NCBI RefSeq assembly: GCF_026168555.1
Contig: NZ_CP092471.1
Location: 878,501 to 942,500, forward strand
Length of the DNA: 64,000 nucleotides
Direction of reading: 5' to 3'
DNA from: Qipengyuania spongiae
GTDB taxonomy: Bacteria > Pseudomonadota > Alphaproteobacteria > Sphingomonadales > Sphingomonadaceae
Part shown: in pieces, positions 8,104 to 29,869 of the stretch
Layout: each line of letters begins with the position of its first letter
Position numbering within the stretch: position 1 is the stretch's first letter
The notes under the pieces: model-generated
What the model was told of the DNA's origin: nothing
The model's database searches: none
The model's input: only the letters and a program-made list of their open reading frames with translations
Made by a program: the position numbers and the translations under genes

Positions 8104-8114
8104 GTCATCCGGCA

Positions 8115-8147
8115 GGGCAGGGACCAGCAGCGGTTCCTGCCCTTTTT
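8115..8147 (+). terminator. Rho-independent terminator
   Basis: An 11-bp stem (8115-8125 with 8132-8142, one G-T pair), a 6-base loop and a run of five T (8143-8147), directly behind the stop of the 73-residue gene. Confidence 0.85.
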
Positions 8148-8149
8148 CG

Positions 8150-8676
8150 TGTGTCTCGGTGGCCGGGCTTCAGGGTCAAGATGTCGATCCCGGGGAAGCC
8201 GGTGTTTCTCCAAATATCATCTTGGACCACTGGCCTTCGTGGGTGTTTGGAGCGGGGCTGGGGACGCACTCTGTCCCGCGCATCCGGCGATGCGCTCCTG
8301 AGGGTGCGGCATTATGCGTTCCGGGGCCCCGCACGCACTTGCGAACCGGCAGCGGGTCGGGCGAGCGGGAAGCTACGACCGCGACATGCCCCGCTTGCCT
8401 TGCTTCCCACAGGCCCTTGGCCGCTGCCTCTCTCGCAGGTGCGCCTACTCTTTCGGGCCTTTCGGCATTGCAGCCGAAAGCCTGCCGGGCGGCGCAATAG
8501 CGTCGGGCTCTGCACGGTTGTCGCCCCCCCTCAATCTTGCCGAGCCCACAACCGGTAGGGGCGACAAATCCGAACGCACCATTGTGTCGCTCCCCCCATT
8601 GCCAAAGCATGCTCCATCACCCTCTGCAATCAGCGGCAGTTAGCCGCAGCTACCCAAGCCTTGTGGAGCTCAGAAT
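8150..8676. other. Gene-free region before the replication genes, with inverted repeats
   Basis: About 525 bases with no credible gene. It holds a perfect 8-bp hairpin (CTTTCGGC and GCCGAAAG, 8459-8480) and a 10-bp perfect inverted repeat (TTGTCGCCCC at 8518-8527 and GGGGCGACAA at 8558-8567), with a further imperfect copy near 8586-8596. Its position just before an HTH gene and a RepA gene makes it a candidate for an origin of replication or the operator of the rep genes. That is inference; no iteron array is evident. Confidence 0.4.
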
Positions 8677-8949
8677 ATGTCCGCCGTTCCCGATCCGGTC
8701 CGTCCCCGTTACCTGCGCACCCCCGATGCCGCGGTGCATCTGGGGCTTTCGCCGCGCACGCTCGAAAAGCACAGATGCTATGGAACAGGGCCGGTCTACC
8801 ACAAGCTCGGCGGCCGCATCGTTTACCGGTGCGAAGATCTCGACGCCTGGGCCGAGCAGGGTCTCCGGCGTTCGACCAGCGATCCGGGCAGGGGCATCGT
8901 TCATCCTGCCAAGCGGATCGACGGCTACACCGGTCCGGTCCGGCGCTGA
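8677..8949 (+). CDS. Helix-turn-helix (MerR/AlpA-like) DNA-binding protein
   Basis: A 90-residue protein with a winged helix-turn-helix (about 10-60) of the excisionase/AlpA type: RYLRTPDAAVHLGLSPRTLE, followed by KLGGRIVYRCEDLDAWAE. Such proteins are found directly upstream of the RepA gene in sphingomonad and rhizobial elements and are thought to control replication or transfer genes. ATG 8677 has GGAG upstream. It is 9 bases before the rep fusion gene and likely co-transcribed with it. Confidence 0.82.
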   Translation: MSAVPDPVRPRYLRTPDAAVHLGLSPRTLEKHRCYGTGPVYHKLGGRIVYRCEDLDAWAEQGLRRSTSDPGRGIVHPAKRIDGYTGPVRR

Positions 8950-8958
8950 GGCGGTACG

Positions 8959-14578: not shown

Positions 14579-16573
14579 TTGTCGGCAACCCGGATATTGT
14601 GGGGTCAGATACTCGTCGTCTTTGCTCTCACGCTCGCAGGTGTGTGGGCGGGTACTCAATGGACGGCGCACGCGCTCGGCTATCAAGCACAATTGGGCGC
14701 GCCGTGGTTCAGTGTCTCCGGAGCGCCCGTCTATCCGCCTTATGCCATCTTCTGGTGGTGGTTCAGCTACGAAGCCTATGCGCCGCGCATCTTCGAGATC
14801 GGCGGAATGATTGCCGCATCGGGCGGTCTCGTGTCGGTGGCGGTCGCGATCGGCATGTCGGTCTGGCGCGCCCGAGAGATCAGGAACAGCGCGACCTATG
14901 GCTCGGCGCGCTGGGCGACCCGTTCCGAAATATCACGCGTGGGCCTTCTGGCAGGCAAGGGCGTCATTATCGGCCAGCATGCCAATCTCTATCTTCGTCA
15001 CGACGGGCCCGAACATGTGCTCTGCTTCGCACCGACGCGCAGCGGCAAAGGTGTAGGCCTTGTCGTCCCGACGCTGCTGACCTGGCCCCACTCGGCGATC
15101 GTGCATGATATCAAGGGCGAGAACTGGGAGCTGACCGCAGGCTTCCGCTCCCGGTTCAGTCGCACGCTTCTGTTTGATCCGACCAATGAGGCGTCGGCAG
15201 CCTATAACCCGCTGATGGAAGTGCGACGCGGCATCAACGAGGTGCGCGACGTGCAGAACATCGCCGATGTGCTGGTCGATCCCGAAGGCTCGCTTGAACG
15301 GCGCAACCACTGGGAGAAGACCAGCCATGCGCTGCTCGTCGGGGCCATTCTGCATGTGCTTTATGCCGAGCCTGACAAGACGCTTGCCGGGGTGGCGAAC
15401 TTCCTGTCCGATCCGCGCCGATCGATCGAGGCGACACTGACCGCAATGATGCGCACGCCGCATCTGGGGGAAGACGGCGTCCATCCGGTGGTTGCGAGCG
15501 CGGCGAGAGAATTGCTCAACAAGTCGGAAAACGAACGCTCGGGCGTGCTCTCGACCGCCATGTCGTTCCTCGGGCTTTACCGCGATCCGGTCATCGCCAG
15601 CGTCACGCGGCATTGCGAATGGCGCATCGCGGACCTCGTGGCACAGGGCCGGCCGGTCACGCTCTATCTCGTCGTCCCGCCGTCAGACATCAGCCGCACC
15701 AAGCCGCTTATCCGGCTCATCCTCAATCAGCTCGGAAGACGCCTGACCGAGGACCTGCAGGAAGGTGCCGGTCGCGAGCGGCTTCTCCTTATGCTCGACG
15801 AGTTCCCGGCTTTGGGCAGGCTCGACTTCTTCGAAAGCGCGCTCGCCTTCATGGCGGGCTACGGCATCAAGGCCTTTCTGATCGCCCAGTCATTGAATCA
15901 GATCGAGAAGGCCTACGGACAGAACAATGCCATTCTCGACAATTGCCATGTGCGGGTGTGCTTCGCGACCAATGACGAGCGAACCGCAAAGCGCGTTTCG
16001 GAATCGCTCGGGACCGCCACCGAAACCCGGGCAATGCGCAATTATGCCGGGCACCGCCTCTCCCCGTGGCTCGGTCATTTGATGGTCTCGCGCTCGGAGA
16101 CGGCGCGCGCTCTTCTGACCCAGGGCGAGATCATGCAGCTTCCCGATACCGACGAAATCGTGATGCTCGCAGGCGTGCATCCGATCCGTGCCAGGAAAGC
16201 GCGCTACTACCGCGATCCGCAGCTCAGCAAACGGGTGGAGTGTCCACCGACGGTTGAAAAGCCGGAGTTCGCAGCGGACGAGAGCGAATGGCACGGGAGA
16301 CATGTGACCGCGCCTTCGCAATTGGAGAAATCGCCGACCGCGTCTGAAGAGTTTCAGGTCGATGATCGCCAGTCCGATGGCGGGATCCGCCAATCCCCTG
16401 AATTGCCGGAATACGAAGATGTGGCGCCGCCGCCAGTCGAGATCCCCAACGAATTTGAGTTTGACGACCGAACGGACGACGATCAGGCAAACCGCAATCG
16501 CAGAATGGCCGAGCGGATGCAGGCCAATGCGCGGCGCGCTGCGCTCGATCCCGGCGACGGGATCGAGCTATGA
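14579..16573 (+). CDS. Type IV secretion coupling protein VirD4/TraG
   Basis: A 664-residue inner-membrane ATPase that would hand the relaxase-DNA complex to a mating channel. Two or three N-terminal membrane helices (about 7-27, 53-70, 75-96) precede the P-loop APTRSGKGVGLVVP at 151-164; the Walker B is LLLMLDEFPALG near 400, and the usual GIKAFLIAQSLNQIEKAYG follows. The last 90 residues are acidic and disordered. TTG 14579 has AAAGGA 8 bases upstream. It overlaps the next gene by four bases. The channel genes it would serve are missing from the window. Confidence 0.93.
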   Translation: MSATRILWGQILVVFALTLAGVWAGTQWTAHALGYQAQLGAPWFSVSGAPVYPPYAIFWWWFSYEAYAPRIFEIGGMIAASGGLVSVAVAIGMSVWRAREIRNSATYGSARWATRSEISRVGLLAGKGVIIGQHANLYLRHDGPEHVLCFAPTRSGKGVGLVVPTLLTWPHSAIVHDIKGENWELTAGFRSRFSRTLLFDPTNEASAAYNPLMEVRRGINEVRDVQNIADVLVDPEGSLERRNHWEKTSHALLVGAILHVLYAEPDKTLAGVANFLSDPRRSIEATLTAMMRTPHLGEDGVHPVVASAARELLNKSENERSGVLSTAMSFLGLYRDPVIASVTRHCEWRIADLVAQGRPVTLYLVVPPSDISRTKPLIRLILNQLGRRLTEDLQEGAGRERLLLMLDEFPALGRLDFFESALAFMAGYGIKAFLIAQSLNQIEKAYGQNNAILDNCHVRVCFATNDERTAKRVSESLGTATETRAMRNYAGHRLSPWLGHLMVSRSETARALLTQGEIMQLPDTDEIVMLAGVHPIRARKARYYRDPQLSKRVECPPTVEKPEFAADESEWHGRHVTAPSQLEKSPTASEEFQVDDRQSDGGIRQSPELPEYEDVAPPPVEIPNEFEFDDRTDDDQANRNRRMAERMQANARRAALDPGDGIEL

Positions 16574-17141: not shown

Positions 17142-17543
17142 ATGGCCTCCGCCCGGTTGGGTGGAGACAATTATCTGATCCCTCGGGACCAGTCGTTTCC
17201 GATCAGGCTGGCGGCGCTCGATGCGTTTCACTGCTGTGTAGATGGTTCCGCTGCTCCCAGCGTGCGAAACCAGTTGCAGCCCACTGCCTATCAGTCCCAC
17301 CGCTTCCACTTGCTGCTCGCCATACTTGATGCTTTATCCCGGGCGCCTGAGGGTGTTATGCTAAAAGATATCGCTGGAACCATTGTTTATCGGGGATTGT
17401 CCGCGCAGCGCGCCATTGACTGGAAATCGTCATCGCAACGCCGCCAGACCCAGCGTCTCGTGGTTGAGGCGCGGCGAATGGCGTCGCACGGCTATCTCGG
17501 CTTGCTTCGCCAAAGCCGGCTCCGCTCTTTTCAAACGCACTGA
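17142..17543 (+). CDS. DUF2285-domain protein, N-terminally truncated
   Basis: The C-terminal part (about 50-130) matches DUF2285: TAYQSHRFHLLLAILDAL, then LKDIAGTIVYRG and WKSSSQRRQTQRLVVEARRM. The same frame is open back to a stop at 17001-17003 and the upstream translation (GDHLVLAGGGARHRLLV) still looks like the family, but it has no ATG, GTG or TTG before 17142. Full-length relatives carry an additional N-terminal domain. The gene is therefore probably a remnant with its 5' end replaced when the copG gene was joined to it. Confidence 0.6.
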   Translation: MASARLGGDNYLIPRDQSFPIRLAALDAFHCCVDGSAAPSVRNQLQPTAYQSHRFHLLLAILDALSRAPEGVMLKDIAGTIVYRGLSAQRAIDWKSSSQRRQTQRLVVEARRMASHGYLGLLRQSRLRSFQTH

Positions 17544-17727
17544 ATGCACTATGGTTTTTCGTGGGGCATGCTGCTGAATTTTGCGGCGCGCCCGGATTGG
17601 AACCGGACCTTGAGGGTCGCAACTGCAACTGCTGGAACAGGTGGAATGGAACCGTCTGATCCGGCACCGAGCAGGCGGTCAGGTGGCGGCGTGTTGGATT
17701 GCGTGCTGCCGATCGAACGGCAGGTCT

Positions 17728-18480
17728 ATGTACGCATATCTCGCGGAGGAATTCGCAACTGAACTTATCAATGTCCGTTCGGACACTGAACTCGACGGTG
17801 CGCTTAAACAGGTTTCCCGGCGCCTTGGCTTCGACCACTTCGCGCTTAGCCTGGAGATGCGTTCGACATCGTGCGAGGCACCGGGCCTGCTATTGCACGA
17901 CTATCCCGACGAATGGGCGAAAGTCTATATTGCCTTCGACCTCGCAGGGCAGGATCCGGTGCGAAGAGCCTGTGACAAGACCATCATCGGTTTCGCCTGG
18001 GACTGGATTGACGAACTCGTCCCTCTCACGCGCGGCGACCGTCAAATGCTCAATGTCGGCCGGGAATGCGGAATTGGCAATGGTTATACTGTTCCGCGGC
18101 ATTTGCCCGGGATAGGGCGCGGCACCTGCACCTTTGCTGTTCGACCCGAGCGAGAACTGCCCCGACGGCGCTTCGCCGTCGCGGAAATGATCGGGACGCT
18201 GGCTTTGAGCTGTGCGCTGGGCCTGAGTTCAGAAAAGTTCGATGAGAAGGTCCCTTCCCTGACCGATCGGCAGCGGGAGTGTCTGCTTTGGGTTGCAAGA
18301 GGGAAGACTGCAGCTGAAACGGCCATGATACTCGAAATCAGCACCGAAACCGTCATTCAGCATCTTAAGATGGCCCGCGAGCGCTACCAGGTCCATTGTA
18401 AACAGTCCCTCGTCGTCGCGGCGCTGTTCGACGGGTTGATCGGGTTTGCCGACATTATCCGTTGGCGGGACACAGGCTAG
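17728..18480 (+). CDS. LuxR-family quorum-sensing regulator with autoinducer domain
   Basis: A 250-residue transcription factor. Residues about 10-165 form the acyl-homoserine lactone domain with the typical positions W63, Y67, D76, P77 and W91 (EWAKVYIAFDLAGQDP); about 175-240 is the LuxR helix-turn-helix (LTDRQRECLLWVARGKTAAE, ETVIQHLKMARERY). ATG 17728 fits the family length; an in-frame upstream ATG would add an unlikely extension. There is no synthase next to it, but luxI lies about 8 kb away in the same island, so they may be partners, separated by the ars and mer clusters. It could control the transfer genes, as TraR does; this is inference. Confidence 0.88.
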   Translation: MYAYLAEEFATELINVRSDTELDGALKQVSRRLGFDHFALSLEMRSTSCEAPGLLLHDYPDEWAKVYIAFDLAGQDPVRRACDKTIIGFAWDWIDELVPLTRGDRQMLNVGRECGIGNGYTVPRHLPGIGRGTCTFAVRPERELPRRRFAVAEMIGTLALSCALGLSSEKFDEKVPSLTDRQRECLLWVARGKTAAETAMILEISTETVIQHLKMARERYQVHCKQSLVVAALFDGLIGFADIIRWRDTG

Positions 18481-18552
18481 TTTTCGCGCCACTGCCTCTC
18501 AATCACTCGAACATGGCCGTACTGCCTATTTCGCAACCGTTCAGAAAGCAAT

Positions 18553-18593
18553 TTGACTTCTCTCGGCATTTCGATATTTTAATAGTTATCGAA
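18553..18593 (+). promoter_or_regulatory. Promoter and ArsR operator of the ars operon
   Basis: TTGACT (18553-18558) with a 16-base spacer to TATTTT (18575-18580) forms a plausible promoter. It is overlapped by an inverted repeat, TTCGATA (18570-18576) and TATCGAA (18587-18593), separated by 10 AT-rich bases, the form expected for an ArsR dimer site. It ends 15 bases before arsR. Confidence 0.65.
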
Positions 18594-18608
18594 TCATTGG
18601 AGTGAGCG

Positions 18609-18947
18609 ATGCAAGCCGACCGCGTGATCCGAGCCCTATCTGCTCTGGCACAGGAGCATCGCCTCGCCGCGTTCCGCCTGCTCGTGCAGGCTGGTGAGCA
18701 AGGCGTTGCCGCCGGGGTGCTAGCTGAAAAGCTCGACGTGCCTCCGTCTTCAATGAGCTTTCACTTGGCTCAGCTCGCCAATGCGGGGCTGGTCACCCAG
18801 CGGCGCGAAAGCCGCTCGATCATCTATTCGGCGGACTATGCCGCGATGAATGGCCTGATGGGCTACCTCACTGAAAATTGCTGCGGCGGCCTCTCCTGTT
18901 CCGAGGATGCCGCCTGCCTTCCTTCTCCTCAACGAAAGAGCGCCTGA
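18609..18947 (+). CDS. arsR: Arsenic-responsive ArsR repressor
   Basis: A 112-residue winged-helix repressor (DNA helix about 45-63, PSSMSFHLAQLANAGLV). It lacks the ELCVCDL metal site in the DNA-binding helix. Instead cysteines lie at the C-terminus: C91, C92, C97 and C103 (TENCCGGLSCSEDAAC). This matches the ArsR subgroup that binds As(III) with a C-terminal CC...C triad, as in Acidithiobacillus ferrooxidans. It heads a tightly packed ars operon and overlaps arsI by one base. Confidence 0.92.
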   Translation: MQADRVIRALSALAQEHRLAAFRLLVQAGEQGVAAGVLAEKLDVPPSSMSFHLAQLANAGLVTQRRESRSIIYSADYAAMNGLMGYLTENCCGGLSCSEDAACLPSPQRKSA

Positions 18948-19417
18948 TGAAACGCTTTCACGTGCATGTCGGCGTGACCGACATCGACCACTCTATTGCC
19001 TTCTATTCAAGTCTGTTCGGTGCCGAGCCCGACGTGGTGAAGGCCGACTATGCCAAGTGGATGCTGGAAGATCCGCGCATCAACTTCGCGATTTCGATGC
19101 GCGAGGCTGCTGCCAAAGGCATCGAGCATGTCGGCTTGCAGGTCGAGGACAAGAGCGAACTCGAAGAGGTCTATGGCCGCCTCAAGGCTGCTGACCGCCC
19201 GGTGCTCGAAGAAGGCGCGACGACCTGTTGCTACGCGCAATCGGAAAAGAGCTGGATCGCCGATCCTGATGGCGTGGTGTGGGAAGCCTTCCTGACCGAA
19301 GGCGAAAGCACGACCTATGGCGGCAGTCCCGATCTCGACCAGCTAGCCTCGGCGAACGCTGCTTCGAGCGCCTGCTGCGCACCGCAACTCGCTCCCGCCA
19401 AGACGTCCTGCTGCTGA
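18947..19417 (+). CDS. arsI: ArsI/CadI-type metalloenzyme (C-As lyase family)
   Basis: A 156-residue vicinal-oxygen-chelate (glyoxalase fold) enzyme. Candidate Fe(II) ligands are H5 or H7 (FHVHVGV), H61 (GIEHVGLQVED) and E113 (VVWEAFLT), and the substrate-binding vicinal pair is C94-C95 (TTCCYAQ). These match ArsI, the oxygen-dependent lyase that cleaves trivalent organoarsenicals such as methylarsenite. The cadmium-induced CadI is a near relative, but the ars context favours ArsI. The tail is Cys-rich (SACCAP, SCC), suggesting additional metalloid binding. Confidence 0.88.
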   Translation: MKRFHVHVGVTDIDHSIAFYSSLFGAEPDVVKADYAKWMLEDPRINFAISMREAAAKGIEHVGLQVEDKSELEEVYGRLKAADRPVLEEGATTCCYAQSEKSWIADPDGVVWEAFLTEGESTTYGGSPDLDQLASANAASSACCAPQLAPAKTSCC

Positions 19418-19423
19418 AGTCCC

Positions 19424-19924
19424 ATGTCAGACCAACCGATGAACGTGCTGTTCCTGTGCACGGGCAACTCCGCTCGCTCGGTCTTGGGCGAGGCAATCCT
19501 CAACCATGACGGGGCAGGCCGCTTCAAGGCCTACAGCGCCGGAAGCAATCCGACCGGCAAGGTAAATCCCTGGGCGATCCATACGCTCAAGACCCTGGGC
19601 TATCCGGCAGAGGGCTATTCCTCCAAGAGCTGGAGCGAGTTTGCCGATGGACCGGAGTTCGATCTCATCTTTACCGTCTGCGACAGCGCAGCGGCTGAAT
19701 CCTGTCCGGTCTGGCCTGGTCGTCCGACCTCGGCGCATTGGGGCATTCCCGATCCGGCGGCTGTCGAGGGCAGCGATGCGGAGAAAGCAGCGGCCTTCCT
19801 CGATGCCTTCTGCATGCTGAAGCGCCGTATCGACCTGATGCTTGCGCTCCCGATTGCGAGCCTTGAGCAAATCGCCCTGCGCGAAAAGTTGCAAGCCATT
19901 GGCCACGAGGCGGATGAACAATGA
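19424..19924 (+). CDS. arsC: Arsenate reductase ArsC (low-molecular-weight phosphatase type)
   Basis: A 166-residue cytoplasmic enzyme that reduces arsenate to arsenite. The P-loop is CTGNSARS (C12 to S19), the nucleophile being C12; a second conserved cysteine lies in [17 protein letters not shown] (about 86 and 93), and the DPA of GIPDPA is the expected aspartate region. It follows arsI by 6 bases and overlaps acr3 by four bases. The product is handed to Acr3 for export. Confidence 0.93.
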
Positions 19925-20991
19925 CCGCTGCAGCTGCTGACATGGACGCCCGCGCGGCGGGGCTAGGCCTGTTCGAGAAATGGCTTTCGGTCTGGGTCGG
20001 CGGCGCGATCCTCGCCGGGATTGCGCTCGGCAATGCAGCGCCAGAGCTATTCGCCTCGCTAGCGGGCATCGAATACGCCTCGGTCAATCTTGTCGTCGCA
20101 GTACTGATCTGGGCGATGATATTCCCGATGATGGTGGCGGTCGATTTCGGCGCGGTGCGTCGCGTCGGTGACAAGCCAAAGGGCCTGATCATCACGCTGG
20201 TAGTGAACTGGTTCATCAAGCCTTTCACGATGGCTGCACTTGGCGTGTTGTTCTTCGAGGTCGTCTTTGCCGACCTGATCGCGCCTGCCGATGCCCAGCA
20301 ATACATCGCCGGGCTGATCCTGCTGGGTGCGGCCCCTTGCACCGCGATGGTCTTCGTATGGTCGCAGCTCACCAGGGGCGATCCTGCCTATACGCTGGTG
20401 CAAGTCGCGGCGAATGATCTCATCATGATCGTGGCCTTCGCGCCCATTGTCGCGCTGCTGCTGGGCGTGACCGACATTGCGGTCCCGTGGGAGACGCTGC
20501 TGCTCTCGGTCGCGCTCTATGTGGTCGTGCCGCTCGCAGCCGGTGCCATTGTGCGGCATCGGCTTCTCGCGACCCATGGCGGCGATGAAGCGGCGGTGTC
20601 CGAATTCACGGGGCGCATGAAGCCGCTCTCGATCATCGGCCTGCTGCTGACGGTGTTGCTGCTGTTCGGCTTCCAGGCGGAAACCATTGTCGCCCGACCG
20701 CTGTTGATCGCGCTGATTGCAGCGCCCATTGTTGTCCAAAGCTACGGCATCTTCTTCATCGCTTATGGCTGGGCCAAAGCGTGGAAGGTCCCGCACGCAG
20801 TAGCCGCGCCCTGCGCTCTTATCGGCACGTCCAATTTTTTCGAACTGGCGGTGGCGGTTGCGATCGGCCTGTTCGGCCTAGGGAGCGGAGCTGCTTTGGC
20901 TACGGTGGTAGGCGTCCTCGTAGAAGTGCCTGTCATGTTGTCGCTGGTAGCGATCGCCAATCGGACGCGTGGTATATTCCCTTTGGCTTGA
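19921..20991 (+). CDS. acr3: Arsenite efflux transporter Acr3
   Basis: A 356-residue inner-membrane carrier of the Acr3 (BART) family with about ten membrane helices. The conserved cysteine needed for arsenite transport is C140 in [16 protein letters not shown], and the family signature [13 protein letters not shown] lies near the C-terminus. It is the last gene of arsR-arsI-arsC-acr3 and overlaps arsC by ATGA. It converges with the YnfA gene, 12 bases away. Confidence 0.95.
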
Positions 20992-21003
20992 TGCGGATGT
21001 GCC

Positions 21004-21330
21004 TCATACCGGTCTGGGGGCGAGCAAGATGACGCCGGCGCCTACAAGGCAGATCGCCACGCCCAGAGTGTCCCACCGATCGGGCTTCACGCCTTCTGCG
21101 ATCCAAAGCCACAAAAGCGCGGACAGAATGTAGACCCCGCCGTAGGCAGCATAAGTTCGACCTGCATGCTCGGCATCGACCAGCGTTAGCAAATAGGCAA
21201 AAAGGACGAGTGAAGCCACGCCCGGAACGAGCCACCAAGCCGACTTGTCCATACGCAACCACGCCCAGAAAGCGAAACAGCCCGCAATTTCAGCAATTGC
21301 AGTACCGAGATATGCGAGAAAGGTCATCAT
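21004..21330 (-). CDS. YnfA/UPF0060 family small membrane protein
   Basis: A 108-residue protein with four predicted membrane helices, recognised by [20 protein letters not shown] and [19 protein letters not shown] of the YnfA family (a small-multidrug-resistance-like fold). Two ATG codons are adjacent (21330 and 21327); GAGG lies upstream. The longer ORF extending to 21411 lacks a ribosome site. It is often found near metal-resistance genes in such elements, but its substrate is unknown. Confidence 0.88.
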
Positions 21331-21411
21331 CTGACCTCTATCGAGATTTCGACTGTCGATCGCAAACGGGATTACCCGGTTGATGGCTTTACTGGACCAA
21401 GCGAGGCGCAA

Positions 21412-22771
21412 CTACGATAGCATGGAGCCAAGATCGGAGCCCACGCTCGGATACACCGATACCATTTTCTTGAGATCGCTTGTTGTCAGTCCAAGTCGGA
21501 TGGCCAAACCGAAGAAATTAATGATTTCGCCATATTCGGGTCCGAGCAGATGGGCGCCCAGGATAGTGTCGCTGTCCTTATCGATTATAACCTTGGTTGC
21601 AGCGCAGCTTTCGCCAACGCGAAGGTTGGAATACCAGTCGCCGGTGTCATTCTCGACGACGCGGATATCGTGCCCGGCCTCTCGTGCATCCTGTTCGAGC
21701 ATGCCAACGCGGGTTAGCTCCGGTACGGTAAATACAGCGCTCGGAACTCCCGAATAATCCGGCTTGGTCCGGTTGCCCTTGAGCATATTGGACGCAGCTA
21801 CCTTGCCCTCGAAAACCGCGACAGGCGTAAGCGGGGCACCCTGCGTATCGGCGGCATCCCCGGCAGCGTAGATTTTCGGGTTGGACGTGCTTTGCAGGTA
21901 GGCGTTGACCGCAACGCCCTTGTCACCTGCCTCGACATTGGCTGCGGCCAGATCGAGCTGATCAATTGCCGCGACGCGGCCCGCCTTGGACGACGAGATC
22001 GGCGCGCAAATCTTTCGTTTCGCTACCCGTTTCTACCGTGACAAGAAAGTCCGTCCCGTCCTTCTTGATGGATTTGAGTGACGTGCGCCGTCGCAGTTGG
22101 ACGCCGACTTCCTCGCCTCGCGCGACGAGTCTTTCAACAAGATCGGCATCGAAACCTTTAAGCGGTCTCTCGCCGCGATCGATCATGCACACCTCGCTGC
22201 CGGCGCGTGCTGCGATATGGCCAAACTCGAACGAGATGAAGCCGCCGCCGATGAACAGGATGCGTTCGGGCAGCGCATCGAGCCGCATGAACTCGGTGCT
22301 GTCGGTAAGGTGTTCGGAGCCGGGAACATCTATCGTCCGCGGCTTGGCACCCGTTGCGATCAGGAAATGGTTTGCCTGAAACTGCCCCTCGCCGTCGATT
22401 TCGACGGTATCTTCGCCGACGAAGCGCGCTTTCCCGTGAAGGGTAGTGACGCCGTTGCTCTCCAGACCGTTTTCGATCCGACCGGGCATTTTGTCGGTGA
22501 ACGTCTGCGTGAAGGCGACCAGATCGGGCCAGTTGATGGCGATGTCGTTCGGTTCGATGCCCTTGCCGTGCATGAGCCGCGCTGCGTCGATGATTTCCGC
22601 CCCGCGGCGGAGCATTTTCTTCGGATCGCAGCCGCGCAGGGCGCAGGTGCCGCCATAAGGCAGTTCGTCGACCACCGCGACCGACCAACCGGCTGAGGCG
22701 CATTTGTTGGCGGCATTTACGGCCGCCATACCAACACCCAGCACTATAAGATCGAAGTTTCGCGTACTCAT
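21412..22771 (-). pseudogene. FAD/NAD(P) disulfide oxidoreductase (glutathione/mercuric reductase type), frameshifted
   Basis: Two frames together encode one flavoprotein disulfide reductase of about 450 residues. The first (22771 to about 21985) holds the FAD motif (FDLIVLGVGMAAVNAA), the redox pair GGTCALRGCDPKK, the NADP-binding ILFIGGGFISFEFG and ends SETKDLRADLVV. The second picks up at about 21983 with GRVAAIDQLDL, then YAAGDAADTQG and a full dimerisation domain ending at 21412. The frames join if two bases (GC) are restored near 21980. It lacks the N-terminal HMA domain and C-terminal Cys pair of true MerA, so a glutathione reductase-like role in the mer cluster is more likely. Start ATG 22771 lies 2 bases after the GDCCVxC stop. 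A sequencing error cannot be excluded. Confidence 0.82.
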
Positions 22772-22772
22772 C

Positions 22773-23003
22773 TCACCGCCCTCCGCAACATGTGGCGCCC
22801 TTGCGATCGGCACGCGTTTCCTGGATCGGCGGGCAGGGGATGGTGCCGAATGAGCAGAAGACACAGCAATCGCCCGCATTGGGGCGGAGTTTCACACCGC
22901 AACCATTGCAATCGTAGAAAAACCAGCAGGCATCCGTCGGCATTCTTTCGAGCTTTTTGTACCCGCAAGTAGGGCATGTGATCTCGGACTTCAGTTCGAT
23001 CAT
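22773..23003 (-). CDS. GDCCVxC-domain small Cys-rich protein
   Basis: A 76-residue cytoplasmic protein with two CxxC pairs (C10/C13, C32/C35) and the family signature GDCCVFCSFGTIPCP (about 44-58), followed by CC near the end. It belongs to the GDCCVxC (seleno)protein family found in mercury operons; some relatives carry selenocysteine, here cysteines are used and no in-frame stop is seen. It probably binds Hg(II) or zinc. It overlaps merP by ATGA and is followed directly by the frameshifted flavoprotein. Confidence 0.87.
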   Translation of the reverse strand: MIELKSEITCPTCGYKKLERMPTDACWFFYDCNGCGVKLRPNAGDCCVFCSFGTIPCPPIQETRADRKGATCCGGR

Positions 23004-23341
23004 AGCGCGCTCTCTGAAAGGATCGCCGGATATCCGGCCTCGGTCGACGCCGCGGCGATCGCGCTTGTGGTTGTTCGCTCAGGATCGAACTGCGCAGTCG
23101 CCGTCCTGGTCTCGTAATCGATAGTCACCTCGTGCACGCCTGCCACGCCTTCCATCGCGCGCCGAACCGTTATCGGGCAGGTCGCGCAGGTCATATTCTC
23201 GACCGCAAAACTTGCCGATTGCAGATGCGCGGAATTTTGTTGAACCCGTTCGTCGGAGTTTGGCGGAAACAAGGTCGCTGCCCAGATACCCGCTCCGGCC
23301 AGTCCCAGTATCGCAACTGCGACGATCATCGTCTTCTTCAT
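23000..23341 (-). CDS. merP: Mercuric ion binding protein MerP
   Basis: A 113-residue secreted protein with a membrane/signal segment (MKKTMIVAVAILGLAGAG) and one HMA domain with the metal pair C52/C55 in ENMTCATCPITVRRAM. MerP takes Hg(II) in the periplasm and passes it to MerT. The start is ATG 23341 with AGGAG upstream; the longer frame to 23680 overlaps merT and is rejected. It lies 11 bases behind merT. Confidence 0.92.
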   Translation of the reverse strand: MKKTMIVAVAILGLAGAGIWAATLFPPNSDERVQQNSAHLQSASFAVENMTCATCPITVRRAMEGVAGVHEVTIDYETRTATAQFDPERTTTSAIAAASTEAGYPAILSESAL

Positions 23342-23352
23342 CTTTCGAACTC

Positions 23353-23715
23353 CTAGTAGAATTGCGGCGCCCACCACTCGACCGTGGACGAGGCAGCGAC
23401 CAATACGGTCGCCAGCCACAGGGAGCTTTTGACGAGCAGGTTTGCTCCGGGCCGCGCGCAATATGTTCCGTCTTCGCAAGGTTCGGCTTGCCGAAAATAG
23501 ACGTGCCGGAATCCAAGGGCCAAAAAGACAACCGCAATGGCGATAAATACCCATTTGTACGGTTCGAGCGCAGTGAGATTGCCGATCCACGCGCCGCTGA
23601 TGCCAAGGCTCAGCAATAACAGCGGGGCAATACAGCAGGACGAGGCGAGTATCGCGCCGAGCGTCCCGCCGCTCGCCCATAAGCGCTGCGCGTTCTTGTG
23701 CATTTGATCGACCAT
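23353..23715 (-). CDS. merT: Mercuric ion transporter MerT
   Basis: A 120-residue inner-membrane protein with three helices. The first helix carries the vicinal C27-C28 (LASSCCIAPLLLL) that receives Hg(II) from MerP; a cytoplasmic loop has a second pair (EPCEDGTYC). An ORF extends to 23757, but its upstream part lies across the mer promoter, so translation must start at ATG 23715 (almost leaderless) or ATG 23703. This is the first gene of merT-merP-GDCCVxC-reductase. Confidence 0.92.
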   Translation of the reverse strand: MVDQMHKNAQRLWASGGTLGAILASSCCIAPLLLLSLGISGAWIGNLTALEPYKWVFIAIAVVFLALGFRHVYFRQAEPCEDGTYCARPGANLLVKSSLWLATVLVAASSTVEWWAPQFY

Positions 23716-23722
23716 GGAAACC

Positions 23723-23753
23723 AATGTACTCCCTGTAGTAACTACAGGTTCAA
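23723..23753 (-). promoter_or_regulatory. MerR-controlled mer promoter with 19-base spacer
   Basis: On the minus strand TTGAAC (23753-23748) and TACATT (23728-23723) are separated by exactly 19 bases, the overlong spacer of MerR-activated promoters. The spacer holds the perfect dyad CTGTAGTTACTACAG (23747-23733). It lies between merT and the divergent merR, whose start is 22 bases away. Confidence 0.85.
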
Positions 23754-23774
23754 GCACTAATTGGCATATGGCTC

Positions 23775-24197
23775 ATGACAGCATCGCAAGTGATCAAACG
23801 GGGAGAACTGGCCAGACGGTCGGGCTGCAACCTTGAGACAATCCGCTACTACGAGAACATCGGTCTGCTTCAGCCTCCCGAGCGTACGGCAAGCGGGCAC
23901 AGGCTCTATCCACCCGGCGACCAGGCGCGGCTCGGCTTTATCTTGCGCGGCCGCGATCTGGGTTTTTCGATCGAGGAGCTCAAAAGCCTGCTCAGCCTCG
24001 TTGATTCGCACCCCTACAGCTGCGGCGAGGTTCGGGATCTGACCAATAACCATCTGGCCAGCGTGCGAGCTAAAATTGCTGATTTGACTAGGTTGGAGCG
24101 CACGCTAGCCGATGTATCAGCCCGCTGCGAAGGCGGTGATGTTCCGGAATGCCCCATCATAGATACGCTCTTTGGTCGTGGTCCTGGCGCCCGATAG
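23775..24197 (+). CDS. merR: Mercury-responsive regulator MerR
   Basis: A 140-residue MerR-family activator/repressor. The N-terminus is the winged helix (RGELARRSGCNLETIRYYEN), then a long dimer helix. The three Hg(II)-binding cysteines are in place: C83, C118 and C126 (Tn501 MerR has C82, C117 and C126). It is divergent from merT over a 19-spacer promoter with a dyad, which it should untwist on binding mercury. Confidence 0.92.
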   Translation: MTASQVIKRGELARRSGCNLETIRYYENIGLLQPPERTASGHRLYPPGDQARLGFILRGRDLGFSIEELKSLLSLVDSHPYSCGEVRDLTNNHLASVRAKIADLTRLERTLADVSARCEGGDVPECPIIDTLFGRGPGAR

Positions 24198-24336
24198 TGA
24201 AGCTATGCCGTCGGAACGGGTGCGCGTCTTGAAGCTATTTCGATCGAAGCCGGATGCGACGAGGCGAGGGAACGAATATGCGCCCTGTCCGTCCCCTCAC
24301 TACAGAGCCTCGTCATTTAACTTTTGATAGCTTTCC

Positions 24337-24765
24337 ATGCCGACCACCATTCTGATTGTCGAAGACGAATTCCTCATAGCTGTCGAAATGGAGGCGGTGG
24401 TTCACGATCTCGGTCATGAATCCGCAGGCATAGCCGACGACATGCAATCGGCATTGGCAAAGGCTTCAGACGCGATCGATGTGGCGCTCGTCGATGTCAA
24501 TCTGGCCGATGGAGCCACTGGTCCGAGGATCGGCGAGAAGCTTGCTGCGGATTTCGGGATCGAGGTTATTTTCGTAACCGCCAATCCCGCACAACTCGGC
24601 GAAGGGGTGAGCGGAACGCTGGGCGCGCTGGAAAAACCGGTCGATCTTAGCATTCTCAAGCAGGTTCTCGACTATGTCATTGCGGTCCGGAAGCCAGCTC
24701 GTGGAACACCAATGCAACCGGCGTGGCGGCGCGGCTTTCGACCGCGATATCGGGGCCGGAAATAG
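24337..24765 (+). CDS. Single-domain response regulator with altered C-terminus
   Basis: A receiver domain protein (142 residues): acidic pair D10-E11, phospho-acceptor D53 (VALVDVNLADG), the T in VIFVTANPAQ and K in ALEKPVD. The receiver ends at about residue 118 (LDYVIAVRK). The last 24 residues (PARGTPMQPAWRRGF...) are translated from the opposite strand of the truncated kinase gene and are not part of the family, so the gene's original 3' end has been lost by a deletion near 24690. It would be the partner of an HWE-type kinase. Confidence 0.8.
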   Translation: MPTTILIVEDEFLIAVEMEAVVHDLGHESAGIADDMQSALAKASDAIDVALVDVNLADGATGPRIGEKLAADFGIEVIFVTANPAQLGEGVSGTLGALEKPVDLSILKQVLDYVIAVRKPARGTPMQPAWRRGFRPRYRGRK

Positions 24766-25198
24766 CAATCCTTCTTTCGGAAAAGGCAGGATAGGTCTCG
24801 AAGATCGTCGCAAGCAGCGTGGCGAGGGTCACTTCCTTGCCCTCGGGCTGGGACTTTTCGCTGTGGGGCCGGACGAATTCGTGCGCGCGCCCCAGCGCGG
24901 AAATCCGGCCCAGCAGGTCGCGCGACGCTTCACCGAACGCTTCATTTGCGCGCGCTGTCAGGCTGATCAAACCGGAAACAATCGCGAAGATGTTCTTGAT
25001 GCGATGGCTGAGCTCTTGACTCAGGATTTCGTTTTGGAGGGCGGTGCGCTTCAGGCTGTCTCTTACCGGCGTCATGCTCACTCCGAAATCGTCAGCGAGT
25101 CGCATCGCCTCAAGCTTCGTACCGGCCCGGAAGCGCCCTTCCAGCAATGCATCTTTCAACCGCCTGTACGTAGGCTCGAGGACGTGAGCGGGACTCAT
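24677..25198 (-). pseudogene. Chimeric ORF: GntR N-terminus joined to an HWE/HisKA_2 kinase fragment
   Basis: A 173-residue frame with two unrelated halves. Residues 1-49 are the start of a GntR regulator's winged helix (YRRLKDALLEGRFRAGTKLE, then DDFGVSMTPVRDSL). From residue 50 on it is the dimerisation domain of an HWE-type histidine kinase (LQNEILSQELSHRIKNIFAI, phospho-acceptor H65) through to the N-box (VALVFHELA), where it breaks off with SGPQ. The missing GntR half and missing PAS half are in the gene at 26904-27812. The ATP-binding domain is absent. It overlaps the phyH stop by four bases (ATGA), and its 3' end overlaps the response regulator. The product is unlikely to work as either parent. 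Confidence 0.85.
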
Positions 25199-26061
25199 CG
25201 TCCGCCGCGGCGCGTCTTGGCGAACTCACGAACCGCTTCTTTCTGGTCGGGGCGCAGACTATCGGTTGCCTGAGGGAATTCGGGCACCTTGTCGCTCAGC
25301 AAAACCGACGGGCATTGCCCTTCGAAATTACCCAGGTTCGGACGGTGCTGCACATATCCGGCGAGCTCGGCGAGTTCGGGAGAGAACTCTTTTGCTACTG
25401 CTGGTGGATAGGCCAGCCAGAGATTCTCGTAGGGTTTGAGCCAGCCGAGACTGTAGCCGATTACGACACCGCGGCGGACATCCTCGGTCTGGTTTGGTCC
25501 CGCTCCATGGACGGTGGAGCCGAGAAAGCAGATCGCATCGCCGGGCTTGCAAACAGCTACTATGGGATCGTCGAGACTTTCGAGATTGTCGACAGGCTTC
25601 CTGTGCGTCCCGGGGTAGATGCGTGTCGCGCCATTGAGGCGAGTAAATTCGGTCAGCGGCCAGATGACGTTGAGAAGATATTCGTGATCGCCCTTGCGGC
25701 CTGCCCACATATCCTGATCGCAATGCGGAAACTGTTCTATCTCGCCGGGATGGATCGCGATCGCCTGGGCGACATTGAGCTGTATCCGGTCGCAGGCGCT
25801 GCCGAGAATTGCGCGGGCGAGCGATAGGACTAGCGGCTGCAGGACTAGATCGCCTGCGACCTGCGACCGGCGAAGCAGGCTTCCAAACCGTTTGGTCCGA
25901 TGGCCATAGAAGTCTCCCTTGCCGAGGGGCGCCTGCGCAAATGCACCTTCCAGGTCGGCATCGAGTGCGGCGATCTGTTGCTCGGCGACAAGCTGCGGAA
26001 TGATGCAATAGCCATCCTCTTGCAGCTGATCGAGCCAATGCGCCTCCCTCGGCCCAGTCAT
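25195..26061 (-). CDS. Phytanoyl-CoA dioxygenase family protein (PhyH)
   Basis: A 288-residue Fe(II)/2-oxoglutarate oxygenase of the PhyH family. The metal triad is H113 and D115 (FPHCDQDMW) and H185 (STVHGAGPN), with R197 (VRRGVVIGY) to bind 2-oxoglutarate. It overlaps luxI upstream and the GntR start downstream by four bases each, so it belongs to a luxI-phyH-gntR operon. A phyH-like gene next to luxI is known from several sphingomonads; the substrate is unknown, and an acyl-homoserine lactone or a fatty-acyl precursor is only a guess. Confidence 0.9.
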   Translation of the reverse strand: MTGPREAHWLDQLQEDGYCIIPQLVAEQQIAALDADLEGAFAQAPLGKGDFYGHRTKRFGSLLRRSQVAGDLVLQPLVLSLARAILGSACDRIQLNVAQAIAIHPGEIEQFPHCDQDMWAGRKGDHEYLLNVIWPLTEFTRLNGATRIYPGTHRKPVDNLESLDDPIVAVCKPGDAICFLGSTVHGAGPNQTEDVRRGVVIGYSLGWLKPYENLWLAYPPAVAKEFSPELAELAGYVQHRPNLGNFEGQCPSVLLSDKVPEFPQATDSLRPDQKEAVREFAKTRRGGR

Positions 26062-26684
26062 GCTGCCAGCTCCATGCCGCCATAGGCTTCCGGCTTAGGA
26101 TTGCGGCAGTAGATCCCTGCGTTGGCGAGTTGCGCGCGTGTATCTTGGTCGATGTCGATCCGAAGAGCGACAAGCTGCTGCCCATCGATAGAAACGCACG
26201 GTCCAAGCTGCTGGCAGCGCCAGCCGAACTGGGCGATCTGACGGAACCAGGGCACTGGGGCGACCGCCGAATAACCAGAGATCCCTTCCGATATTGCAAA
26301 ATCGGCGAGTGCGGAGACGAGCTGGTTGCGGACACTCCGGCGATCAGCGCGCGGCAACGTGGGATCGATACAGAATCGGGTAATCTCGCGAAATGCCTCA
26401 TCCTGCGGAACAGGTCCGGTGCACAGCTGCGGAAAGAGATCGCGTAAGATATGAGGTCCATCAGAACGCAGGAGCCGGGCCGATGCGCGATGCTCGCACT
26501 TTTCGCCGGTGAGGACGAGATAGGCGGCCGAGGGCGTATCGAACTGGTCGATTTCAAAGGTCCCGTCGAGCACCGGAACGTCCCACCCAAGAAGATCCAC
26601 GAACACGCGCTTGCGCGCCTCGAACATGGCGCGAAGTGCCGGATCGACCAAGTTTGCACCATTTATACCGCTGCTTTGCTGCAT
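26058..26684 (-). CDS. Acyl-homoserine lactone synthase (LuxI family)
   Basis: A 208-residue enzyme that makes an AHL signal from S-adenosylmethionine and an acyl carrier. All the invariant LuxI positions are visible: R24, F28 and W34 (FEARKRVFVDLLGW), D46 and D49 (EIDQFD), R70 (ASARL), E100 and R103 (REITRF). ATG 26684 is preferred over 26768 because CAGG lies upstream and the family length fits. It is first in the luxI-phyH operon. The LuxR at 17728-18480 may be its receptor. Acyl chain specificity cannot be told from the sequence. Confidence 0.93.
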   Translation of the reverse strand: MQQSSGINGANLVDPALRAMFEARKRVFVDLLGWDVPVLDGTFEIDQFDTPSAAYLVLTGEKCEHRASARLLRSDGPHILRDLFPQLCTGPVPQDEAFREITRFCIDPTLPRADRRSVRNQLVSALADFAISEGISGYSAVAPVPWFRQIAQFGWRCQQLGPCVSIDGQQLVALRIDIDQDTRAQLANAGIYCRNPKPEAYGGMELAA

Positions 26685-26841
26685 GAAGATTACCTGTGAA
26701 CTTGATGACTGCTCGCATCTCATCAAATCCGGATAGGCAGCGACATACCAAGAACTGGGGAGGGCCACATCTGGCGCTCTACAGGGGAGAGTTTACTGGC
26801 CATCCCACCTTTGCGATGAGCGTCAGCGTTTGAAAATCATC

Positions 26842-26860
26842 AAGATACGACAGGTATCTT
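26842..26860. promoter_or_regulatory. 19-base perfect palindrome between luxI and the PAS gene
   Basis: AAGATAC (26842-26848) and GTATCTT (26854-26860) flank five bases. It lies in the divergent intergenic region, 44 bases before the PAS gene and 158 before luxI. It could bind the LuxR regulator (a lux-box-sized site) or the GntR regulator encoded in the operon before the inversion. Confidence 0.55.
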
Positions 26861-26903
26861 ATCGGTCCGATTCTGTTCATCCCGGGAAGGTCACAAGCTG
26901 GCT

Positions 26904-27812
26904 ATGAATGCAAAAGTCATCACGAACTTCCAGCTTGGCAGCCGCGAATCCTCTTCGGCGCCTGATGTCTTGCCCCTCGCTACAGAGCATGCGCTGCAAT
27001 CCGCCGGAGCTGCTTTCCATGCGCTCGCCGACACCATGCCGCAGATGGTATGGTCGACTCTTCCCGACGGCTCCCACGATTATTACAATGCGCGCTGGTA
27101 TGAATTCACGGGTGTCCCTGTCGGATCAACCGACGGCGAAGGATGGGCCGGGATGTTCCATGAGGATGACCAGGCCGACACATGGAAGAAATGGAACCAC
27201 AGCCTCGCTACCGGCGAACCGTACGAGGTTGAATATCGCCTGAGGCATCACAGCGGCGATTATCGCTGGATGATCGGTCGTGCGCTGCCGATCCTCAACG
27301 AGGAGGGTGAGATCCAGCGCTGGATCGGCACTTGTACGGATATCGACGAGCAGAACCAGCTTGTCGGTGAAGGGCTGGTCGACCTCACGCCCGGCGAAGG
27401 ATTTCGCGTACCGCTGCTTACCGAACAGGCCTTGCGCGACATTCTGCAAGTCAACGCCCTGCTTTTGGAGCAGGCTCCCGACAACGATCACAAATCACTG
27501 ACAATCAACGAAGGATCAAACGACACGCGAGGTGCTTATGCCGACCGATTGGCGCGCGCCTTCAGAGACATCGCGGCAAGCTCAGGCAATCGGTTTCGCG
27601 TACATTTGGTCGAACGCATTAGCGACAGACTCCAGCCGCTACGTGAACTCGAGCCGGTGATTTGGCCTGGCGCGCCGCATGCCCTTGAGCAAATTGAGCG
27701 AAAAGCGCAGCAAGGGTTCGATGGCTCAAACCGAGCGGTACGCGCATATCATCAACACATTGAGGATCTGGTACCCGCTCTTGTCGGACGTTTGAACCAG
27801 CAGACGCCCTAG
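26904..27812 (+). pseudogene. Chimeric ORF: PAS sensor domain joined to the C-terminal half of a GntR regulator
   Basis: A 302-residue frame. Residues about 35-150 are a PAS domain with PAC end (LADTMPQMVWSTLPDG, YYNARWYEFTG, YRWMIGRALPILNEEGE, IQRWIGTCTDIDEQ), the N-terminal half of an HWE histidine kinase. From residue 151 the text is the end of a GntR winged helix and its ligand domain (NQLVGEGLVDLTPGEGFRV, TEQALRDILQVNALLLEQ). The junction codon is near 27354. The matching halves are in the frame at 24677-25198. It has no kinase core and no complete DNA-binding domain, so a normal function is unlikely, though the ORF is intact and could be expressed. ATG 26904 lacks a clear ribosome site. 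Confidence 0.85.
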
Positions 27813-27826
27813 CCCTCGCCAATATT

Positions 27827-29041
27827 TTAGGTCGTCTCCCCACTCTCGGACAGAACCGTCGCGAGGTGGTCATTCCAGGCATCGAGCGCCTGGCGCTTTT
27901 CGTCCTTCCAGTCGTGGCGCTGGTAGATGCCGGCGACTCCGGCGCGAGATCCGCCCACATGGTTGAGAACGGCTTCGGTGACTTCAAACCGAACGCCAAG
28001 CCGCTGGAAGTTCGTTGCGAGGGTTCGTCGTAGATCATGAAGGCGCCAGGCTTCGAGCGGCTCTTCGCAACGTTCCTCGATCAGGCTGTCGAGCTTCACC
28101 TTCCCTTTGGCGTATCCCGTAAAGCCCGCCCCGCTAGCTGTCGCGAAAACACGGCCCTTACGCGGCCACCTCTCGCCGCGAGCCTCCCGGTCGAGCTCGG
28201 CGATTGCAAGATCGTTGAGGGGAATGGAGTTAGGTTCTCCGTTCTTGGTTCGAGATCCGGGCAGGGTCCATAATCTTTCGCTGCGACTGAGCTCCTGCCA
28301 GTGCATCCCGGAGACTTCTTCACGGCGCTGTCCGGTTACGATCAGAAGCCTGACAATTGGACCAAAGCAGCGATGACATTCCGGCGCCGCATTCCAGATA
28401 TGGCGGAGTTCGCCATCCTTGAGCCAGCGCTCTCGTGGCTTGACCGGAGGCGGCGTTTCCATGCCCTCCATCGGATTGCGATCGATATCTCCGCGACTGA
28501 CGGCCCAGCGAAACAGGCGGCGCATAACGGCAAAGACATTTCGCCGGTTTGCCACCTGCTTGGGCGGCATCTGATCGAGAACCGAAACGACGTCGATCTT
28601 CGTAATCGCTGGCAGCGCCTTCATTCCGAATGTGGGCTTGAGGTAGAGGCGAATGGATCGCTCCACGAGGCGACGCCATCCCTCGCGTTTGCAGGAGCGA
28701 GTGAAGAGGTCAGCGTAATTCGAGAAGGCGAGGTCGACAGCTTCCCGGCGGCGCTGCTTTTCCGCATCAACCGGATCAATGCCCTGCGCAACAATCACCA
28801 ACAATCGCTCAGCTTCCAAGCGTGCAGTAGTCGGTGTCCAAGGCGATCCATGTGATCCGATCGTGAAACGACGGGTCTTCGCTTCTCGTCCGCCCATTCG
28901 GAACTGGATTATGTAACTGATTGATCCAGCAGTTGTAATCTTGACGCCAAAGCCCTTGAGATCGGTGTCCCAAAGATAGTTTTCCTTTGGTCCAACCGGG
29001 AGCGAATCGACCGTGCGCTTGCTGATTTTTCCTGTTGCCAT
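27827..29041 (-). CDS. Tyrosine recombinase (integrase) of the island
   Basis: A 404-residue phage-type integrase with an N-terminal arm-binding DUF4102 domain (KISKRTVDSLPVGPKENYLW), a core-binding SAM-like domain (about 105-190) and a catalytic domain with the expected residues: R in TGQRREEVSG, K in RTKNGEPNSIPL, HDLRRT, H in LNHVGG and the nucleophile Y in AGIYQRHDW. ATG 29041 has GAGG 7 bases upstream; the frame reaches back to 29068. Its 5' end faces trmB, marking the right end of the island. Confidence 0.94.
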   Translation of the reverse strand: MATGKISKRTVDSLPVGPKENYLWDTDLKGFGVKITTAGSISYIIQFRMGGREAKTRRFTIGSHGSPWTPTTARLEAERLLVIVAQGIDPVDAEKQRRREAVDLAFSNYADLFTRSCKREGWRRLVERSIRLYLKPTFGMKALPAITKIDVVSVLDQMPPKQVANRRNVFAVMRRLFRWAVSRGDIDRNPMEGMETPPPVKPRERWLKDGELRHIWNAAPECHRCFGPIVRLLIVTGQRREEVSGMHWQELSRSERLWTLPGSRTKNGEPNSIPLNDLAIAELDREARGERWPRKGRVFATASGAGFTGYAKGKVKLDSLIEERCEEPLEAWRLHDLRRTLATNFQRLGVRFEVTEAVLNHVGGSRAGVAGIYQRHDWKDEKRQALDAWNDHLATVLSESGETT

Positions 29042-29167
29042 GCGATACCTCGTGGCCTTTTCTGGCAATCACCGGGTAATCACGCAAGCGGAAAAAGGGG
29101 CGAATTGGAGGCAATTCTGGCGTAAGTGTTTTGCGCTAAGTCGTTGTTTTTACAACATCAGCGTAGT
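29042..29167. other. Gap between integrase and trmB; likely attachment site region
   Basis: 126 bases without a gene. It contains a small perfect hairpin, GTTGT (29143-29147) and ACAAC (29152-29156) around TTTT, 11 bases before the trmB stop. Island recombinases usually cross over next to their own gene, so the att site is probably here or at the 3' end of trmB. No second copy of this sequence is in the window, and there is no tRNA. Confidence 0.4.
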
Positions 29168-29869
29168 CTAGCGTCGCCTGAATCGAAAGTACCAGACTTC
29201 GTGGCCCATCTGGGTGCGCGCCTTGTGTTCGTAGCGCGTCTCGCACCAGCCGGAGGGGCGGTTCTCCCAGCTGTCCCGGCTTTCGACCTGCCATTCGAAC
29301 ACGTCGGTAAAACGCCGCATTACCATCAGAGCGTGGCGCAGATAGACCGGGTGGTCGGTGCCGAAGCGGAACTCGCCGCCCGGCTTCAGCTTGTCGGCGA
29401 ACATCCGCACCGGCCCGTCATTCATCATCCGCCGCTTGGCGTGCTTGTTCTTGGGCCAGGGGTCGGGATGGAGGAGATAGAGCATGGTCAGCGCGCCGTC
29501 GGGCACCCGGGCCAGCGCCTGCAACGCATCGCCGTGGACCAGGCGGACATTGGCGAGCTTGCCTTCCTCGACATGGGCAAGGCACTGGGCGACGCCGTTG
29601 AGATAGGGTTCCGCGCCGATCAGCCCGTGATCGGGCAGCAGATCCGCCCGATGCGCCAGGTGTTCGCCGCCGCCGAAACCGATCTCGAAATGGAGCGGGC
29701 GGTCGTCGCCGAACAGGCGCTCGGCGGTCACCGGCCCCTCGTCCGGCACCGCGATCCGGGGAAGCAGGTCCTCGACCAGATGTTGCTGATGCGCGCGCAG
29801 CGGCTTGCCTTGGCTGCGCCCGTAGAGCCGGCCGAGCGTGGTCGGATCGCCTTCCTTGAATGCCGTCAT
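29168..29869 (-). CDS. trmB: tRNA (guanine-N7-)-methyltransferase TrmB
   Basis: A 233-residue SAM-dependent enzyme making m7G46 in tRNA. Features: EIGFGGGEHL (SAM loop), the aspartate in LVHGDALQAL, LLHPDPWPKNKHAKRRM (family signature) and FGTDHPVY. The start is ATG 29869 (MTAFKEGD); the frame runs further upstream without a ribosome site. It is the first chromosomal gene right of the island and is intact. Confidence 0.93.
   Translation of the reverse strand: MTAFKEGDPTTLGRLYGRSQGKPLRAHQQHLVEDLLPRIAVPDEGPVTAERLFGDDRPLHFEIGFGGGEHLAHRADLLPDHGLIGAEPYLNGVAQCLAHVEEGKLANVRLVHGDALQALARVPDGALTMLYLLHPDPWPKNKHAKRRMMNDGPVRMFADKLKPGGEFRFGTDHPVYLRHALMVMRRFTDVFEWQVESRDSWENRPSGWCETRYEHKARTQMGHEVWYFRFRRR

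Follow-up and report, generated by a model that had tools for sequence, protein, structure and literature searches.

We analysed a 64,000-nucleotide stretch of the Qipengyuania spongiae genome (contig NZ_CP092471.1, positions 878,501 to 942,500; hereafter the window). The locus described here is cargo beside the integrase of an island that resembles an integrative and conjugative element (ICE) and carries both luxI and luxR. Within this cargo a 2,306-bp segment is inverted, so that genes for a GntR regulator and a PAS-HWE histidine kinase have exchanged halves, and 312 bp have been lost close by. The features of the locus are given below in window coordinates, with the evidence for each in brackets (AHL, acyl-homoserine lactone; ORF, open reading frame).

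24337 to 24765, plus strand: response regulator, with its C-terminal tail replaced through the 312-bp deletion (PF00072; sequence of relatives)
24677 to 25198, minus strand: chimeric ORF, GntR residues 1-49 followed by the dimerisation part of an HWE kinase, cut at HELA (Pfam GntR and HWE_HK)
24692 to 24693: deletion junction, 312 bp of the relatives absent, 2-bp AG microhomology (comparison with relatives)
25050 to 27355: inverted segment of 2,306 bp, with the 5' part of gntR, phyH, luxI and the PAS part of the kinase gene (orientation relative to the flanks in relatives)
25050 to 25052: left inversion junction, GAA/TTC microhomology (exact junction word in loci of the window's own genome only)
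25195 to 26061, minus strand: phyH, phytanoyl-CoA dioxygenase family, intact, within the inverted segment (PF05721, E 3.8e-28)
26058 to 26768, minus strand: luxI-type AHL synthase gene, intact (PF00765; the genome's only match to the family)
26904 to 27812, plus strand: chimeric ORF, kinase PAS domain (150 residues) followed by the GntR C-terminal part (152 residues) (Pfam PAS_3)
27353 to 27355: right inversion junction, GAA microhomology (exact junction word in loci of the window's own genome only)
27827 to 29068, minus strand: tyrosine integrase of the island (PF00589, PF13356)

An inversion that swapped the two regulators had been proposed from the letters of the window alone (the original prediction), and the make-up it gave for both ORFs agrees with the domain matches and the relatives. 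The minus-strand ORF matches positions 5-47 of the 64 in the Pfam GntR profile (5-64 in the intact GntR protein P0010) and then HWE_HK, and it stops where the kinase of relatives runs on into the ATPase part. Beyond the PAS domain, the plus-strand ORF has no Pfam match at an E value of 0.001; in relatives this portion belongs to the C-terminal part of GntR. When 99 relatives were searched, residues 1-153 and 148-302 of this 302-residue chimera matched separate genes. The start and end of an intact GntR protein of 201 amino acids (P0006) equal the two GntR halves of the window, of 49 and 152 residues. luxI and phyH, with their upstream region, moved as one intact block.

Copies of the locus were gathered from 397 genomes of the family and through a search of GTDB contigs with the PhyH protein (best 80 loci of 279 relatives). 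In the latter set, the named hosts of copies at 97% protein identity or above belong to Erythrobacter, Novosphingobium, Citromicrobium, Tsuneonella, Croceicoccus, Pacificimonas, Stakelama and Qipengyuania. Alignment to two genomes (G024 and G050) runs through the left flank, then through 25050-27355 in the opposite orientation at 100.000% identity over 2,306 bp, and then through the right flank. Both junctions are readable in 18 of the loci L043-L100 (L043-L049 and L054-L064). All 18 have the repaired order, with the kinase joined to its PAS domain and gntR whole, and in all 18 the segment, at 94-100% identity, is oriented opposite to the flanks. A recount over 224 loci gave 24 with both junctions repaired, or 19 after removal of five known duplicates (L030, L031, L032, L210 and L215, which repeat stretches of L054, L064, L059, L043 and L045; more between the two collections are possible). 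G434 contains a second copy, which is likewise in the repaired order. Flipped junctions occur in six of the 224 loci, all from the window's own genome. In the repaired order, the PAS-HWE kinase and the neighbouring luxI-phyH-gntR operon are both intact. This sequence comparison confirms the inversion as real and its ends as right to the base, with a 3-bp ambiguity at either end.

Searched with up to 3 mismatches, the inverted left junction was found in the window's own genome only (none among 396 others of the family and none among 59 others of the genus), and the inverted right junction, searched in the genus, was absent from the same 59. Most of the genomes searched are without the element: carriers of the nearly whole 2,306 bp number seven among the 396 other family genomes, and in the genus the element was found in four other genomes (G024, G050, G051 and G039). 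Plasmid records gave no match to the locus in 'near' mode. In viral contigs a 24-base junction word had no matches, and a 16-base word had 44 but is too short to be telling.

The fusions could in principle be ancestral proteins, in which case it is the relatives that were rearranged; we found no support for this reading and regard it as scarcely conceivable. The same fusions were looked for as stable architectures elsewhere, and none was seen among the best 120 hits listed per query. Coverage of the PAS-GntR query by any one protein does not exceed 52% (best 120 of 3,397 hits), a null that is weakened by the absence of the window's own chimera from the same 120. GntR and HWE domains occur together only in P0121 (best 120 of 347 hits), which has two member sequences and apparently derives from the window's own contig. 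Intact forms, in contrast, are widespread: the GntR protein P0010 is on 644 contigs, and the cluster of the intact kinase P0004 has 377 member sequences. Also against ancestral fusions are six loci at about 70% DNA identity (L066-L070 and L073), in which luxI, phyH and the 5' part of gntR continue directly into the 3' part of gntR. These six loci have no DNA match to the kinase; thus, the luxI-phyH-gntR operon seems to be the older unit.

The relatives also reveal a second rearrangement. Where the response-regulator gene adjoins the 3' end of the kinase gene, they keep 312 bp that the window has lost at 24692/24693; the gap at this site is 321-322 bp in relatives and 9 bp in the window (in L054, window position 24693 falls at offset 6321 and 24689 at offset 6629). 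The deletion begins within the HELATNAMKYGAL stretch of the kinase and takes its ATPase half, residues 255-335 of intact P0004 being those that hold the ATPase matches. As a result, the last residues of the response regulator are replaced. The deletion junction word, like those of the inversion, is confined to loci of the window's own genome. The prediction had held that flipping the interval back repairs both genes. This is correct for gntR, whose rejoined halves equal P0006. It fails for the kinase, because the 312 bp that include the ATPase half are gone.

Both chimeric frames did stay open, as had been pointed out, but this amounts to one coincidence and not two. The shared GAA is at phase 2 in both genes, so that the inversion cut both in the same codon phase, for which the chance is 1 in 3. 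Since GntR is cut in its DNA-binding domain and the kinase fragment has no ATPase part, loss of both functions is likely, and we consider both chimeras probably non-functional. A paralogous PAS-HWE kinase is encoded in one open frame elsewhere in the genome (G000:C1:588458-589261) beside a response-regulator match, and may explain why the loss is tolerated. It is also conceivable that one event with several breaks, at the time of ICE transfer or later, left at least one chimera expressed and acting, for example as a dominant-negative protein that rewires quorum-sensing control of the element. We think this highly improbable. If true, the candidate active chimeras would be the fusion of PAS with the effector portion of GntR and the fusion of the GntR N-terminus with the dimerisation domain of a histidine kinase.

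The original prediction had allowed that the arrangement is one state of a switch. Such a switch would be a reversible site-specific inversion through which two regulators trade their C-terminal halves. The two open frames fit such a system, and recombinases are available in the genome: the adjoining tyrosine integrase and two serine recombinases elsewhere. We found no link of these enzymes to the inversion ends. Direct comparison of the ends revealed no inverted repeats or recombinase sites at both. The ends share 3 bp; the flanks agree at 11 of 30 positions (P = 0.13), dyad symmetry is low (0 and 6 matches in 27), and among the 25 longest inverted pairs, out of 109, there is none with its arms at both ends. 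In the other genomes searched only the opposite orientation was found. The deleted ATPase part, which a re-flip does not restore, is a strong argument against reversibility. We therefore consider a switch very unlikely and do not retain this part of the prediction; overall, the earlier interpretation is partly supported.

Two further candidates for the making of the breaks were rejected. For inversion by the integrase, the 61 bp around the probable attachment core of the island contain a 7-bp run that also occurs at the GntR breakpoint, a likeness that about 15% of random site pairs equal or exceed. Hairpins at the breakpoints have ordinary fold energies (with RNA parameters as a proxy).

The rearrangements are recent. 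When it is compared with 12 stretches drawn from 10 genomes, the window shows a single private difference, at position 21303, over 9,153 aligned bases of element sequence; the 4,461 aligned bases within 24694-29160 contain no such difference. The stretches themselves differ at 12 positions (L054), at 40 over shorter cover (L044) and at 1 to 8 (the other ten). Over 24694-27352, copies in the ancestral order with zero differences are present in L054, L057, L064, g258 and L043 (the last two being one genome). The window nevertheless has three new junctions within 2.7 kb. One private difference set against three junctions makes one recent compound event the likeliest account of inversion and deletion together, a proposal to which we give about even confidence. 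Two independent events are possible, though we hold this version to be clearly less likely: a deletion that inactivated the kinase would have been followed by the inversion in cargo then free of selection, or the reverse. Consistent with recurrent decay of this kind, the same cargo is broken otherwise in G001, and a truncated GntR (P0197) exists. A single private difference in 9,153 bases, on the other hand, leaves scant time for two rare events separated by about 360 bp. Both versions fall under the same broader explanation.

As had been predicted, the inversion ends share only GAA, and the relatives support a microhomology-type origin: the shared sequence at the joins is short, within the 1-10 bp expected of such rearrangements, and there is no long homology. 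Sharing of 3 bp or more is expected for 5.9% of random inversions in this sequence (P = 0.059); the deletion join shares 2 bp (AG), with 2 bp or more expected by chance at P = 0.16. In the ancestral order, the response regulator gene (plus strand) points towards the PAS-HWE histidine kinase gene (minus strand), itself divergent from the luxI-phyH-gntR operon (plus strand). Broken ends or a stalled replication fork may then have been rejoined via 2-3 bp of microhomology. The 3' end of the kinase gene lost 312 bp, the next 356 bp remained unmoved, and the next 2,306 bp came to lie inverted. The kinase was thereby cut between its PAS and dimerisation domains and GntR inside its winged-helix domain, with exchange of the halves. 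Ku/LigD end joining or template switching are the candidate agents. The host encodes Ku (PF02735, G000:C1:409071-409610) and LigD_N (PF13298, 407891-408211), both over the cut-off and 0.9 kb apart.

An assembly or library artefact has to be considered, given that the arrangement is found in one assembly only, but appears unlikely. There is no end repeat for an assembler to confuse, and three base-exact junctions with short shared sequence resemble real joining. The genome consists of 2 contigs and is 100% complete. Three matches to the segment were counted in it, and those listed are the locus itself and a 79% partial match to the PAS part.

We judge it probable that the locus records a recent, illegitimate, one-way rearrangement in the cargo of an ICE-like island, in whatever number of steps it occurred. 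It looks like accidental breakage of spare cargo and not like a genetic switch. Several points weigh against this account. Few genomes carry the element, so that a rare flipped state could have escaped detection, and the single assembly leaves room for an assembly fault. Microhomology of 2-3 bp is just weakly above chance. The count of private differences leaves out small insertions. The ATPase domain of the intact kinase has its matches below the Pfam cut-offs; the identity of this domain relies on these weak matches and on the HELATN stretch, which we take to be a motif. The loss of function in the chimeras is predicted from sequence, and the two changes may have come in separate steps.

The cargo has other broken or partial forms among the relatives. 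In G001 (L037, about 7793-9854), a deletion leaves the integrase with its first three quarters, fused in frame to a complete PAS-HWE kinase in an ORF of about 686 amino acids, and removes luxI, phyH and gntR. In L038 and L039 (from G043 and G046), the PAS part of the kinase, together with the region upstream of it (26792-27355 plus about 24 nt), is joined to a fragment that by eye is TonB-dependent-receptor-like. This protein form (P0001) has 62 member sequences, and its break is about 24 bp from the inversion break. The same PAS piece is present in G156, G352, G384 and G345. In G039, contigs C2, C3, C4 and C6 (L033-L036) end on repeated copies of the PAS/kinase region, and this genome probably has at least two copies.

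Further features of the island are as follows.

14579 to 16573, plus strand: type IV secretion system coupling protein, TraG/VirD4 type (PF02534, E 1.2e-99)
17142 to 17543, plus strand: RovC-type DNA-binding protein (PF10074, presumably DUF2285 in older naming)
17641 to 18480, plus strand: LuxR-type regulator (PF03472 and PF00196; the genome's only match to the AHL-binding family)
29168 to 29197: probable attachment core at the 3' end of a gene that we take to be trmB (the identity of the element ends about here and host genes diverge)

The AHL synthase and AHL-binding families are each matched once in the genome, in both cases by a gene of the island. The coupling protein suggests a conjugative element. 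Of the features of an ICE, the integrase, the coupling protein and a probable right end at trmB are present; a left end was not found in the stretches examined. Also encoded are MerT, MerR, and LMWPc- and SBF-type genes, the last two of which we take to be an arsenic set. A pyridine nucleotide-disulphide oxidoreductase gene (21412-22879; mercuric-reductase-like by context) seems to be split into ORFs of 305 and 124 amino acids, the first of which was covered by the Pfam scan. Relative to five relatives of other genera or species, identity is about 100% from 20 kb to about 29.2 kb, followed by divergence of host genes. Positions 18500-20000 form a divergent block, with as many as 36 mismatches in 250 bp; this is a mosaic cassette that includes genes of the glyoxalase and LMWPc types. 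The near identity of about 20000-29160 in several genera points to very recent spread of the ICE-like island at trmB.

The rearrangement is ordinary in kind and unusually clean. With 4,461 aligned bases free of private differences and three new junctions, it is an unusually well-dated and base-exact case of bacterial illegitimate rearrangement. It indicates that newly arrived island cargo is breakable within very few substitutions, and that one inversion can create two open chimeric genes in a single step. It provides no evidence for a new switch. The portions of the searched literature available to us hold no report of this rearrangement, and we make no wider claim.

Intragenic invertons are a known phenomenon. 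They are represented among the reference entries of PMC11868660, the part of that source available here. The locus resembles them in that a gene-containing segment is inverted and coding sequence is changed; unlike them, it lacks inverted repeats, shows no second state across the genomes examined, and has a deletion alongside.

The adjacency of phyH to an AHL synthase gene is shared with the luxI-phyH pairs of Sphingomonadaceae. In Novosphingobium, according to the part of PMC3704786 available, phyH adjoins the AHL synthase gene in 4 of 5 pairs, and that text has no mention of GntR. Here, in contrast, gntR follows the pair, and the genes belong to an ICE-like island on which some 7.6 kb separate luxR from luxI. 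The combination of luxR, luxI, a protein of what we take to be the DUF2285 type, a coupling protein and an integrase on one element recalls ICEs of the ICEMlSymR7A type (PMC10359603, seen in excerpt). The island differs in that it appears to be integrated at the 3' end of trmB.

A further likeness is to bacterial inversions and deletions formed by microhomology-mediated or non-homologous end joining, with which the locus shares 2-3 bp microhomology, absence of repeats, sequence loss, and host Ku and LigD. Microhomology-mediated joining is mentioned in the available part of PMC7719229, which has nothing on Alphaproteobacteria or on rearrangement. The enzyme proposed here is a candidate only, and the locus differs from such events in combining two reciprocal in-frame chimeras and a clustered deletion in one place.

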